Shown here in pieces: positions 23,410 to 36,878 of a stretch of 37,984 nt of DNA. The position numbers and the translations under genes were made by a program. Position 1 is the stretch's first letter. Every line of letters begins with the position of its first letter. The notes under the pieces are model-generated. The model saw only the letters and a program-made list of their open reading frames with translations, had not been told where the DNA came from and searched no databases. This stretch comes from a virus, in the IMG/VR virus record IMGVR_UViG_3300047462_000755, positions 1 to 37,984 of that record; one strand, written 5' to 3'.

Positions 23410-23970
23410 ATGGATAGTGTAGACTTTACAAAATTATCGCATAAACAGGCGGCAGAAATAAACCTGTACATCAACAACATGGCCCCGGCTATGGTGGTAC
23501 AAAAAACGCTGCGCTTTATTGATGGTAACTTTCGCGCCCAGGGATGGCAGGGTGCTACATTTCAGCCATGGGCGGCTATCAAACGCAAAGGTACTATACT
23601 GGTGCTTACCGGCAAGCTTCGGCGCGGCACCAACTATACGACCAGCGGACGCGGGGAAGTTCGTTTTTACAACAATGTACCGTATGCCAAAGCCCATAAC
23701 GAAGGGATAACCATTAACGCAACGGTGAACGTTCGCGGATTTATGAGGCGGCGTTTTTATACCGACGAAGTATCAAAGCCCGGCGCACGGAAACCCAAAA
23801 TTGAAAAAACGCAGATTGGCGAAAGCGAGGTTAGGCCGTTTACCCGAAAAATGAATCTAACCATAAAACAACGGCAGTTTATGCCCTATGAAGGCCACGA
23901 AAGCCCGGTTTTGAATAAAGCCATTATACGCGAACTTGAAAAAACAATTAAAGGCATTTTAAAGGTTTAA
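23410..23970 (+). CDS. Phage virion morphogenesis protein, Mu gpG-like
   Basis: Start set at ATG 23410 (MDSVDFTKLS); the frame is open further upstream only because it crosses the inverted repeat and REP-like element. The 186-residue product has the motif RAQGWQGATFQPWAAIKRKGTILVLTGKLRRGTNYTTSG, the characteristic stretch of the phage virion morphogenesis (gpG/tail completion) family, followed by YAKAHNEG. It is basic overall (many K, R). Confidence 0.8.
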   Translation: MDSVDFTKLSHKQAAEINLYINNMAPAMVVQKTLRFIDGNFRAQGWQGATFQPWAAIKRKGTILVLTGKLRRGTNYTTSGRGEVRFYNNVPYAKAHNEGITINATVNVRGFMRRRFYTDEVSKPGARKPKIEKTQIGESEVRPFTRKMNLTIKQRQFMPYEGHESPVLNKAIIRELEKTIKGILKV

Positions 23971-32671: not shown

Positions 32672-32714
32672 CTATCCCTCCCTCTCTGCCGGAAAGGGCC
32701 GGGGTTAGGCTACA
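32672..32714. repeat. REP-like palindrome (copy C)
   Basis: Contains CCCTCCCTCTCTGCCGGAAAGG and a GCCGGGGTTAGGC tail covering the stop codon of the transposase (32710-32712). Related in layout to copies A, B and D. Confidence 0.6.
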
Positions 32715-34761
32715 TTTCGTCGTAAATGCTCCAGGATTTTTCCACCACTTCACCCTCTCCTTTGGAGATGGACGGGGTGAGGCAATCTTCATATCCGCCC
32801 AATACTTTTTGCGCTTTGTGATTGATGGCTTTAGTGAGTACCCCGGCCTGTACAAGGCTGGAAGCGTCTATTTTAGCCCGTTCCAAACGTGCGTCCCTGT
32901 CGGTAACGTAGGTGTTAAGCTTATTCATTATCGCTTCTTTTTCTTGCATGCGTTCGTCGCGCATTGCGCCGTCTCCTGGTGTCATATCGGCAAGGGCAGC
33001 TGGTTGCAGCTTGTAGGCAGAGGCCACAAAGCGCAGGCCTTTGTTATCGGTAACCAATACCTGGCTCATGTCGGTAGGGTCGTAGGTAATCTCTACCCGT
33101 TTGTTCAAATTTTCGGGGAACAATGCCGCAGGAACGTCATAGCTGTACTTCACGTTATTGATCTGGAAGTTTAACCCGCTTACGGTAAGCCTTGCAGGCT
33201 CATGCGGCTGGTGCTTTTTGCCAAAAAGTTCAATCCGGTTTTCGTTGGTAATGGCGCGGCTTTTGCAAAAATCGCTTTGCATAAAAGCATCAAGCCATTG
33301 TTGTTGTCGGGTCTGTTCGGTGTCAGCTACCAGGCTGTGGCGCATGGTATTGATTGCCATTTCTATCACGGCTTCCGCATGTTGTTTCTCCGGGAAATCC
33401 TTGCTTCTTTTTTGTAAAGCTTCCGGGTTGGGGCGGCTTGTTTCGCTCTTTGCAGTAATGTTACCCCCGGAGTAATTCGGGAATACCTTTAACACTTTGT
33501 GCAGCGGTCGGCCAAAAACCCGCTCTATGTACTTACTCTGCGCCACTTGCGCCGGAAAGAAAATAGACTGTTGTTTAAAGTTTAGAAAAGTAGCTAATTC
33601 GCCCTCCAACTTCGGGTCAATGCTCCACTTATCCGTTTTTACCTGGTGCCACAAATGCGGTTGGCCTGTTAGGTCAACAATGTGCGCCATTGCATTTCGG
33701 TAAGCCTCTTTAACCAGTTCTATCGTAACCGTTTCGCCAACTGCATATCCTAAAATGTAATCATTAAAGGTATCTATCACCACGTACATCACCGGGCGGT
33801 AATAACTGTTGGTATGCTTTTTACCGTTGCTGTAGCTGATCTCCTTAAAGTACAAGTCCAGCACGTTGTCGTCGCTGTTAATCAGCATTAGCGGCGATGT
33901 GGCCCGGCTTTGCTTAATTTGCTTGCTGTATTTGTTATAAGCAGCTTTTTGGCCTATCCTGGCGGCATCCACTTCATAACCACGGGTGCGCCTGCGGTAG
34001 GCAACTGCCGACCCGGTAATGGTTTTGCGGCCATTTTTTGCCGCCCACAGGTTATAACTGGCAGCTATAACTTCGTCGTCGTGCTTATTATCTATTTCAA
34101 TAAGCTTCATTAGCACGTCTTCCGCTTCCTGATCTTTTACTTTTTTGCTGTTTTCGTTACCAAAACGGTGTTCATCCTTCTTAATAAGCAGCTTAAAACC
34201 CGCTTCGGTGTTAAAACCGGCCTTTTTATAGTCCTGTAACGTCTCTGAAAGCCGGATTCTGTTTTTAGGCAAATGCACGTTTTCAGCCTTTAAAACATCG
34301 GCCACAATAAGCCAAAAAGCGGCCATATTGATATTAAAATCACGCTTTAAAGCTATTTTATCCGTAGTATAATGCTGTATAGCGTCTAAGTAGGTTATAG
34401 CTTTGGTGTATCGGTCGCGGTACTGCTCTGGCAGCTTGCTGCCGTTTGGCAGTACATAACGGGTATAAAAATCCCTGGCTATAGTATTCCAGTTGATCTT
34501 TACCCACTCTGTTAATGGCTTCGTAAGGACGTATTTATAAGGGTCACCGTATTTTTCTTTAATCGCAACCTTATATTTTTCGGGTAATGTTTCGTATTCG
34601 ATCAGAACAGTACTACCGATACCACCACCCCGGCCAAAAACGGTTATTTTCTTACCCTTACGATGATATTGATAGTTATCCGCTTTCATAATAGCGGGTA
34701 CGATTTCATCGTATTCAAGACATAAAATATTGTTACTATAGAACTTCATAAGGATTAACAT
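32710..34761 (-). CDS. MuA-like DDE transposase
   Basis: A 683-residue transposase (start 34761; the Met at 34749, MKFYSN, is alternative). N-terminal DNA-binding regions (about 1-280) are followed by the RNase H-like core. Catalytic residues align to MuA: Asp297 (LINSDDN), Asp377 (HQVKTDK) and Glu413 (KYIERVFGR), matching MuA D269, D336, E392. The later segment SGGNITAKSETSRPNP is the MuA-like loop. The C-terminus carries a foreign-looking LTPSISKGEGE peptide from a REP-like insertion. It joins phage ends to target DNA and drives replication. Confidence 0.93.
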   Translation of the reverse strand: MLILMKFYSNNILCLEYDEIVPAIMKADNYQYHRKGKKITVFGRGGGIGSTVLIEYETLPEKYKVAIKEKYGDPYKYVLTKPLTEWVKINWNTIARDFYTRYVLPNGSKLPEQYRDRYTKAITYLDAIQHYTTDKIALKRDFNINMAAFWLIVADVLKAENVHLPKNRIRLSETLQDYKKAGFNTEAGFKLLIKKDEHRFGNENSKKVKDQEAEDVLMKLIEIDNKHDDEVIAASYNLWAAKNGRKTITGSAVAYRRRTRGYEVDAARIGQKAAYNKYSKQIKQSRATSPLMLINSDDNVLDLYFKEISYSNGKKHTNSYYRPVMYVVIDTFNDYILGYAVGETVTIELVKEAYRNAMAHIVDLTGQPHLWHQVKTDKWSIDPKLEGELATFLNFKQQSIFFPAQVAQSKYIERVFGRPLHKVLKVFPNYSGGNITAKSETSRPNPEALQKRSKDFPEKQHAEAVIEMAINTMRHSLVADTEQTRQQQWLDAFMQSDFCKSRAITNENRIELFGKKHQPHEPARLTVSGLNFQINNVKYSYDVPAALFPENLNKRVEITYDPTDMSQVLVTDNKGLRFVASAYKLQPAALADMTPGDGAMRDERMQEKEAIMNKLNTYVTDRDARLERAKIDASSLVQAGVLTKAINHKAQKVLGGYEDCLTPSISKGEGEVVEKSWSIYDEM
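32745..32786. repeat. REP-like palindrome (copy D) inside the transposase gene
   Basis: CACCC...GGGGTG outer arms around TCTCC-TTT-GGAGA; on the coding strand it encodes LTPSISKGEGE, a peptide type seen where such Bacteroidota repeats fall in genes. It lies in the last 15-25 codons of MuA. Confidence 0.65.
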
Positions 34762-35265: not shown

Positions 35266-35424
35266 TTAGCGGTTAACGAATGCTTGAGGACACAACCAGG
35301 CAAATAACAGCGTCACGGTTACGTACAGGAATACCATGAAGCCAATGCCTTCAATAAGGGTTACACCCTCCTTGCTGATAAGGCGGCGCGGGATGGTTAC
35401 GATTTGAATAGTGATCTTTTTCAT
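35266..35424 (-). CDS. Small 52-residue membrane protein
   Basis: A short open frame from ATG 35424 to TAA 35266: MKKITIQIVTIPRRLISKEG, then VTLIEGIGFMVFLYVTVTLLFAWLCPQAFVNR. One clear transmembrane stretch (about 22-44). It abuts the next membrane gene by 11 bp and has a long homopolymer tract just upstream. The coding sequence has normal phage codon use. Function unknown; a small early membrane protein. Confidence 0.7.
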   Translation of the reverse strand: MKKITIQIVTIPRRLISKEGVTLIEGIGFMVFLYVTVTLLFAWLCPQAFVNR

Positions 35425-35432
35425 TTTTTTAG

Positions 35433-35453
35433 TTTTTTTTTTGGGGGGGGGGG
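35433..35453. repeat. Homopolymer tract T10 G11
   Basis: Ten T followed by eleven G (plus strand), giving C11-A10 in the leader of the small membrane gene at 35424. Such tracts are prone to slippage. Confidence 0.75.
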
Positions 35454-35477
35454 ATTTATGGTTGTTTAAGAATTTGC

Positions 35478-35744
35478 TTACTCGTTTTTGCCTTTAAGGT
35501 GATCTATCACCTCTTTAGCCATAGCTACAATGTGCATTTGCTCATCTACAATCAGTTCCTTGCAGTACATTACCAGTTTAGCCGTTTCGCTTTTGTTGTC
35601 GCGGTCGCCGGTAAGAACTTTTTTAGCGTAACTGGTGGATACGCCTGTAATAAGGGCTATTGACTCTGCTGTAGGGGGTTGCAGCACTGGCAATACCTCT
35701 TTTTTGTTACAAGTCGTTTTTATTGTTTTATATTTACTGTCCAT
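35478..35744 (-). CDS. Ner/Cro-like HTH regulator
   Basis: An 88-residue protein with an HTH-like region ESIALITGVSTSYAKKVLTGDRDNKSETAKLVMYCKELI (about residues 28-65). It is divergent from the LexA/CI-like repressor and first in the leftward early operon, exactly where Mu encodes Ner. The promoter and operators lie in the shared intergenic region. It would repress both divergent promoters during lytic development. The Ner label is by position. Confidence 0.7.
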   Translation of the reverse strand: MDSKYKTIKTTCNKKEVLPVLQPPTAESIALITGVSTSYAKKVLTGDRDNKSETAKLVMYCKELIVDEQMHIVAMAKEVIDHLKGKNE

Positions 35745-35762: not shown

Positions 35763-35793
35763 CAAACATATACTAAAAAAGTATAATTACAAA
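35763..35793 (-). promoter_or_regulatory. Early leftward promoter (Bacteroidota -33/-7)
   Basis: On the minus strand TTTG (35790-35793) precedes TATGTTTG (35763-35770) by 19 bp, matching the Bacteroidota promoter consensus TTTG-N19-21-TAnnTTTG. Operator O1 lies between the two elements. Transcription would start about 12 bp before the Ner-like ATG (35744). Confidence 0.75.
35769..35785. promoter_or_regulatory. Operator O1 (TATAC-N7-GTATA)
   Basis: Perfect inverted repeat TATAC taaaaaa GTATA, inside the early promoter spacer. Binding here would block RNA polymerase. Confidence 0.7.
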
Positions 35794-35798
35794 CTTTA

Positions 35799-35815
35799 TA
35801 TACAAAAAATGTATA
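35799..35815. promoter_or_regulatory. Operator O2 (TATAC-N7-GTATA)
   Basis: TATAC aaaaaat GTATA, 30 bp from O1 centre to centre and ending 1 bp before the repressor ATG (35817), so it would also affect repressor expression. Confidence 0.7.
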
Positions 35816-35816
35816 A

Positions 35817-36707
35817 ATGCTTATCAGTGAGAAAATAAAACTGGCAAGAAAGCTGATAGGTGTGAGCCAGTCGGAGGCTTCTATTAAATCTGGAGTAGAG
35901 CAAAAGGATATATCGTTGCTGGAAAGTGGGAAAAAGAAGTTCGTTCCCGATGAGTATATACAATTTTTGTATAAATGTGGTATTGATCTAAACACCCTGT
36001 TTAACCCCGATGCAGAATTACGGCTTTTAGGTGCTAATACCCCCGTAGCTAACAAGCCAGATCATTTACTAAGTGATACAGTTCTTACCTATACCCCTGC
36101 CGATAAAAAGGATTTATTAAAAAAAAATACTACACCCAACACTACATCCAATACCGTTTTAACCCCTCAATTTATAACGGTTGACAGCGAAGGAAACGAG
36201 AATATTTTGTTTGTTTCTGTGAGGGCCGCTGCGGGTTATTTGAACGGCTACCAGGATAGGGAGTATATTGAAACGTTGCCTTCGTTCACTTTACCGCAGC
36301 TTAAAAACGGCACCTTTCGCGCTTTTGAAGTCGATGGCGACAGTATGTTCCCAACACTCGAAAACAAAGAAACTGTAATAGGAAAGTACTTAGAGCGATT
36401 AGAAAATATCCGGGAAGATTACGTATATATCGTGGTTACTAAAGACAGGGGAGCGGTAGTTAAACGCCTGTTAAACAGGATAGATAAGTACGGTTATATC
36501 GTTGCTAAAAGCGATGCGCTCGATAATCGCAACCTATACCCAAATATCGAAATTTACGCTGATGACATACTGGAAGTTTGGGAGGCAGTAGCACACATCA
36601 ACTTTAAATTTAAACATCCTACAGATATGTACAAGCGGGTCAACAATATCGAAGCCGACATGAGCGAAGTGATGCGCCTTCTAAAGAAGAACAACCTTTT
36701 ATCGTAA
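35817..36707 (+). CDS. LexA/CI-like phage repressor (XRE HTH + S24 peptidase)
   Basis: A 296-residue repressor. N-terminal XRE-type HTH (about 5-55, RKLIGVSQSEASIKSGVEQKDISLLESGKK). A Ser/Thr/Asn-rich linker follows to about 125. The S24 domain has the AAAGYL cleavage site (Ala139-Gly140 region), catalytic Ser176 (GDSMFPTL) and Lys216 (GAVVKRLL). Autocleavage on RecA activation would derepress the early promoter. Divergent from the Ner-like gene, with operators between. A third operator lies within the gene at 35957. Confidence 0.9.
   Translation: MLISEKIKLARKLIGVSQSEASIKSGVEQKDISLLESGKKKFVPDEYIQFLYKCGIDLNTLFNPDAELRLLGANTPVANKPDHLLSDTVLTYTPADKKDLLKKNTTPNTTSNTVLTPQFITVDSEGNENILFVSVRAAAGYLNGYQDREYIETLPSFTLPQLKNGTFRAFEVDGDSMFPTLENKETVIGKYLERLENIREDYVYIVVTKDRGAVVKRLLNRIDKYGYIVAKSDALDNRNLYPNIEIYADDILEVWEAVAHINFKFKHPTDMYKRVNNIEADMSEVMRLLKKNNLLS
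35957..35973. promoter_or_regulatory. Operator O3 within the repressor gene
   Basis: TATAC aattttt GTATA, the same inverted repeat as O1/O2, 158 bp downstream of O2 inside the repressor coding region, and likewise followed by AAATG. It could bind a distal repressor dimer for looping or roadblock. Confidence 0.65.
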
Positions 36708-36874: not shown

Positions 36875-36878
36875 GATG
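36875..36878. repeat. Target-site duplication, right copy (GATG)
   Basis: GATG at the start of the right host flank repeats the GATG at 1657-1660 that ends the left host flank. Confidence 0.75.

Follow-up and report, generated by a model that had tools for sequence, protein, structure and literature searches.

The early-control region of this transposable prophage raises the question of why the same palindrome occurs three times at one repressor gene, twice in front of it and once within its coding sequence, which protein recognises the three copies, and what the intragenic copy does. The window, meaning the whole stretch of 37,984 bases analysed, is from a viral record and contains a prophage whose MuA-type transposase identifies it as a Mu-like transposable phage; its host is a Bacteroidota bacterium. 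The early operon is transcribed on the minus strand and contains a gene for a short Ner-like protein followed by the MuA and MuB genes, and the repressor gene is transcribed divergently from it (Table 1). The Ner-like protein fits Ner in its position in front of the MuA gene and its helix-turn-helix (HTH)-like look, and has no confident family match.

The prophage (1661–36874) splits a LOG/lysine-decarboxylase-like gene (1328–1660 and 36876 on), has the ends TAAG...CTTA, and is flanked by an apparent 4-bp duplication, GATG (1657–1660 and 36875–36878), compared with 5 bp in Mu. Runs of T and G are located side by side at 35424–35455, upstream of a 52-aa early ORF, and may be a slippage site or an artefact of sequencing.

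Table 1. Coordinates of regulatory features and genes at the early-control region of the window.
Feature	Coordinates	Strand	Remarks
MuA-type transposase	32710..34761	-	phrog_310, E 7e-41
Short Ner-like protein, 88 aa	35478..35744	-	opens the divergent early operon
Candidate repressor promoter (TTG, 22 bp, TATATTTA)	35704..35736	+	weak consensus match
Early promoter, putative -7 box TATGTTTG	35763..35770	-	predicted from the Bacteroidota consensus
O1 TATACTAAAAAAGTATA	35769..35785		early-promoter spacer; conserved in L057, L175, L207 and L222
Early promoter, putative -33 box TTTG	35790..35793	-	predicted; 19 bp from the -7 box
O2 TATACAAAAAATGTATA	35799..35815		ends 1 bp upstream of the repressor's ATG (35817)
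Repressor, 296 aa	35817..36707	+	CI/434-type DNA-binding domain (DBD) and S24 domain
DBD part of the repressor gene	35817..36026	+	putative recognition helix QKDIS; contains O3
Decayed O3a, fourth half-site CGTTCCCGATGAGTATA	35942..35958		overlaps O3; perfect in L057, L207 and L222
O3 (O3b register) TATACAATTTTTGTATA	35957..35973		within the repressor gene, codons for Y-I-Q-F-L-Y

The repressor has the features of a CI-type S24 repressor, with a lambda/434-type N-terminal HTH as well as an S24 dyad and cleavage site. Residues 1–42 give a match (E 0.0025) to 1sq8, an engineered 434 repressor domain, the protein matches the phrog_4 transcriptional repressor (E 2.7e-15), and the S24 domain is recognised as PF00717 (E 9e-6); the Ser-Lys dyad (Ser176 and Lys216) and the Ala139-Gly140 cleavage site are invariant in the repressor alignment. 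A protein of this kind would probably recognise palindromic operators located at the divergent early promoter, and the S24 domain suggests that induction may occur by cleavage.

The palindrome TATACNNNNNNNGTATA (TATAC-N7-GTATA) has three exact matches in the window and none besides (shuffled expectation 0.02, with three matches reached in no shuffle), and the next-best site, at 23758, has one mismatch. The scan of the whole window finds no copy within the Ner-like gene. O1 and O2 are 30 bp apart, O2 and O3 are 158 bp apart, and O3 is located about 140 bp into the repressor gene; a longer 23-bp word, TATATACAAnnnnTGTATAAATG, is common to O2 and O3. The predicted early promoter, TTTG-N19-TATGTTTG on the minus strand, is of the Bacteroidota -33/-7 type, and O1 fills its spacer and covers the first two bases of the -7 box. 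The first-pass annotation had placed all three perfect sites correctly, O1 in the promoter spacer, O2 beside the repressor ATG (the 30 bp being the distance from O1 to O2) and O3 within the repressor coding region, and its inventory missed the decayed fourth half-site, which is at the place where relatives have an additional perfect site that overlaps O3.

Phages with the same operators were sought by several routes. A scan of 2.9 million viral contigs for the O1–O2 pair, by DNA pattern alone, gave 39 stretches, one of which (L057) encodes a relative of the DBD beside MuA. Among 151 genomes from a single bacterial family the same pattern matches twice, and one match (G030, L207) is a transposable prophage with the repressor's DBD adjoining MuA. 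Another such phage (L222) came from a DBD profile search and a further one (L175) was found independently via a MuA search. Scans of viral contig proteins with the Ner-like protein or the transposase as lone query gave no matches, and alignments were needed. One weak DBD match (L148) is a small, unrelated HTH protein that lacks the sites and was rejected.

The first-pass annotation proposed one regulator for all three sites, acting on the early promoter, and took absence of the sites from phages with the same repressor as evidence to the contrary; O1, O2 and an intragenic site are present in all five phages of the DBD class (the window, L057, L175, L207 and L222), which share about 47–61% identity in the DBD and in whose aligned members QKD, in the putative recognition helix, does not vary. 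Four perfect sites are present in each of L057, L207 and L222, the two intragenic ones overlapping by two bases. The window retains only the second of this pair and L175 only the first (O3a), with one mismatch, O3b being gone.

Comparison of these phages with others indicates which protein the operators follow. L057 has the same operators as the window with 46% identity in the DBD and 25% in Ner, and L175 has the same operators with 47% identity in the DBD and an unrelated C-terminal domain, whereas L067 is similar to the window in Ner (49%) and the C-terminal domain (69%) but not in the DBD (22%), and its operators differ. More generally, phages that resemble the window in Ner, transposase and C-terminal domain have other operators when their DBD is a different one. 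Because the operators follow the DBD, the predicted regulator is the repressor and not the Ner-like protein, the first-pass annotation having named both as candidates. It is very improbable that the sites are bound by a Ner- or Cro-like early protein that turns the repressor off, whether or not the repressor binds there too. Operators of Ner and Cro frequently coincide or overlap with those of the repressor, and the Ner-like protein is encoded divergently from the operators and HTH-like in look, but the operators can differ between phages with similar Ners and be the same where the Ners are dissimilar.

In two Sphingobacteriaceae chromosomes (L223 1428–2714 and L226 1354–2634) a protein composed of two tandem DBD copies and an S24-like end is encoded between queuine tRNA-ribosyltransferase-like and permease-like genes. 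Its helix (QRDIS) is related to that of the repressor, and no TATAC-N7-GTATA site is found near either gene, which counts against the operator reading given below.

Judged on the window by itself, a perfect O3 has a probability of 3% once the repressor protein sequence is fixed, and the case for O3 therefore rests on cross-phage comparison. At least ten operator specificities, from phages with unrelated DBDs and including that of the hankyphage, have their own operator copied inside the repressor gene, usually with O1 near -50 to -60, O2 near -20 to -30 and the intragenic copy at about +112 to +190. These include TTAGAC-N4-GTCTAA (L004, L007 and L067), TACAG-N4-CTGTA (L068 and L153), TTGTAA/TTACAA types (L006 and L157), TCTCAA types (L107 and L192), TCGAAA-N4-TTTCGA (L201) and TCAAGTTTCTTGA (L198), and more classes with this layout exist. 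The rank test described below indicates a layout of this kind in the Elizabethkingia phage TCUEAP3, and inspection by eye does so for a Porphyromonas transposable phage.

In the rank test, each locus's own coding region was compared with the coding regions of other loci, all scored against the upstream operators of that locus. The own coding region ranks first in 17 of 29 loci, and in a larger set it reaches the top 2% for 23 of 34 transposable-phage loci versus 9 of 68 other loci; O3 is not significant in about a third of the former (11/34 outside the top 2%). A first statistic on the triple, unweighted, gave modest p-values only; in the refined statistic, which reuses the same loci, matches are weighted by base rarity and compared with other loci's coding regions. 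An automatic scan for upstream pairs was noisy because start codons are misplaced.

The codons point in the same direction as the ranks. Permutation of synonymous codons gives a combined Fisher p of 4e-9, and at residues conserved within classes identical codons are used at 63 of 74 positions in O3 (85%) versus 206 of 452 (46%) over the remainder of the DBD (Fisher p 5e-11); these p-values serve as guides since the pairs are not independent, and the codon-conservation test is independent of the refined match statistic. The alternative that the protein sequence at the end of the HTH domain produces O3 incidentally, such that only O1 and O2 matter, draws on the 3% figure for the window and on the observation that in 56% of cases the best match stays where it was when codons are permuted. 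However, the O3 of each class differs and matches its own upstream operator, and its synonymous codons are far better conserved than those elsewhere in the DBD, so that this alternative is highly unlikely. The comparison supports an O3 that is not a chance occurrence but functional and under codon-level selection, as judged from sequence.

It is probable that the three sites are the repressor's operators, with O1 and O2 silencing the early promoter and O3 limiting the repressor's own transcription by a block to elongation. The early promoter, from which the Ner-like, MuA and MuB genes are expressed, would be occluded by a repressor dimer on O1. O2 is about three helical turns from O1, and another dimer bound there would strengthen repression cooperatively. 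The candidate repressor promoter is situated upstream of all three operators, such that repression at its core is unlikely and negative feedback would act on elongation, as a roadblock, or by looping; relatives have promoter-like sequences in the repressor direction at about -87 to -108 (TATATTCG, TATCTTCG and TATATTTG). Repressor on O3 would lower repressor output by stopping RNA polymerase that started at the upstream promoter, and this feedback would hold the repressor concentration in a narrow range, from which cleavage or loss could induce the phage.

Looping would have dimers on O1/O2 and O3 joined via the C-terminal domain, closing a loop of 140–230 bp that tightens repression of both the early promoter and the repressor gene. 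CI-type S24 C-terminal domains can oligomerise, and every phage of this DBD class retains at least one intragenic copy. In phage TP901-1 the third CI operator is likewise distal (PMC7250872). Loops so short should nevertheless be phase-sensitive, and helical phasing is not significant either for O2–O3 centre distances, which range over 138–202 bp (class-level Rayleigh p about 0.17), or for O1–O3 distances (class-level Rayleigh p about 0.45); for both, the ten classes are a small sample. The lack of significant phasing leans towards a roadblock over looping, which we regard as possible but rather unlikely. The first-pass annotation had offered both for O3; the functional role that it assumed is upheld, and, by analogy, a roadblock would be the most likely form of it.

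The Bacteroides hankyphage jmh43 is a transposable phage whose repressor, RepC_HP, holds lysogeny according to a silencing experiment (PMC12135933). This is the only paper found in which a transposable-phage repressor from Bacteroidota is identified experimentally, and its passages on the subject describe no operators for RepC_HP. The 42.8-kb genome contains exactly three TCTAAG-N3-CTTAGA sites within one mismatch, all at the repressor: one upstream, one at the gene start and one about 150 bp inside, two of the three falling within the repressor coding region. RepC_HP thus resembles the window's repressor as a transposable-phage master repressor at the same locus with a three-site layout, but it is short, lacks an S24 domain and has a different operator.

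The non-canonical Bacteroidetes LexA (CTAA-N5-TTAG) is similar in having an HTH and an S24 domain, a phage origin and a related C-terminal domain; it differs in being a chromosomal SOS regulator, and its published analysis is of upstream boxes. Eight chromosomal, phage-derived LexA-like genes (L108, L111, L114, L115, L123, L135, L138 and L146) have, in addition to upstream CTAA-N5-TTAG boxes, an intragenic box at +141 to +154 (positions in L123 and L138 after start-codon correction), which is exact in L108, L123, L135 and L138 and has one mismatch in the other four; the HTH protein motif at this position itself favours such codons. An apparent intragenic copy of the own operator is also seen at +139 to +224 in six temperate-phage contigs without a match to the window's MuA (L016, L017, L022, L024, L011 and L009).

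On balance we favour a wider view, in which Bacteroidota transposable phages, some other temperate phages and phage-derived LexA carry their own operator in the DBD sequence, such that the DBD and all operators would form a contiguous immunity cassette of ~250 bp, exchangeable by recombination with its autoregulation included. A new immunity specificity may then arise in one recombination event, because the exchanged stretch carries the DBD, O1, O2 and O3. The lysogeny switch of many such phages would be mappable from sequence alone, and the pattern points to self-limiting transcription via an intragenic operator as a widespread mode of repressor homeostasis.

The restriction-modification controller C.Kpn2I limits its own synthesis through a binding site within its own open reading frame, acting as a roadblock, a form of intragenic self-limiting control that was called unprecedented (PMC6237814); it shares with the window a regulator's site inside its own gene, but has a single intragenic site and serves no phage immunity switch. 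The TP901-1 CI switch (OR, OL and OD) has divergent repressor and early genes and three operators, the distal third one intragenic, a topology common to phages with different operator sequences (PMC7250872). Its OD, however, lies in the lytic mor gene, whereas the third site of the window is in the repressor's own gene, and its CI has no peptidase domain, unlike the window's repressor. Phage BPs was considered as a precedent and rejected, as what lies within its repressor gene is attP, and OR and ORep, its two operators, are intergenic. Searches of the open-access literature gave no description of a phage repressor gene with an operator in its own coding sequence. In Mu, the O1–O3 operators lie upstream of the repressor gene. 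The likeness to Mu drawn by the first-pass annotation holds for the multiple operators and for a repressor divergent from an early operon with a Ner-position gene and MuA; it fails for O3, which is in the repressor's own coding sequence, and the window's repressor is of the CI/S24 type. As read from its sequence, the switch of the window is a CI-type multi-operator switch in a new form, with one predicted operator in the repressor's own gene.
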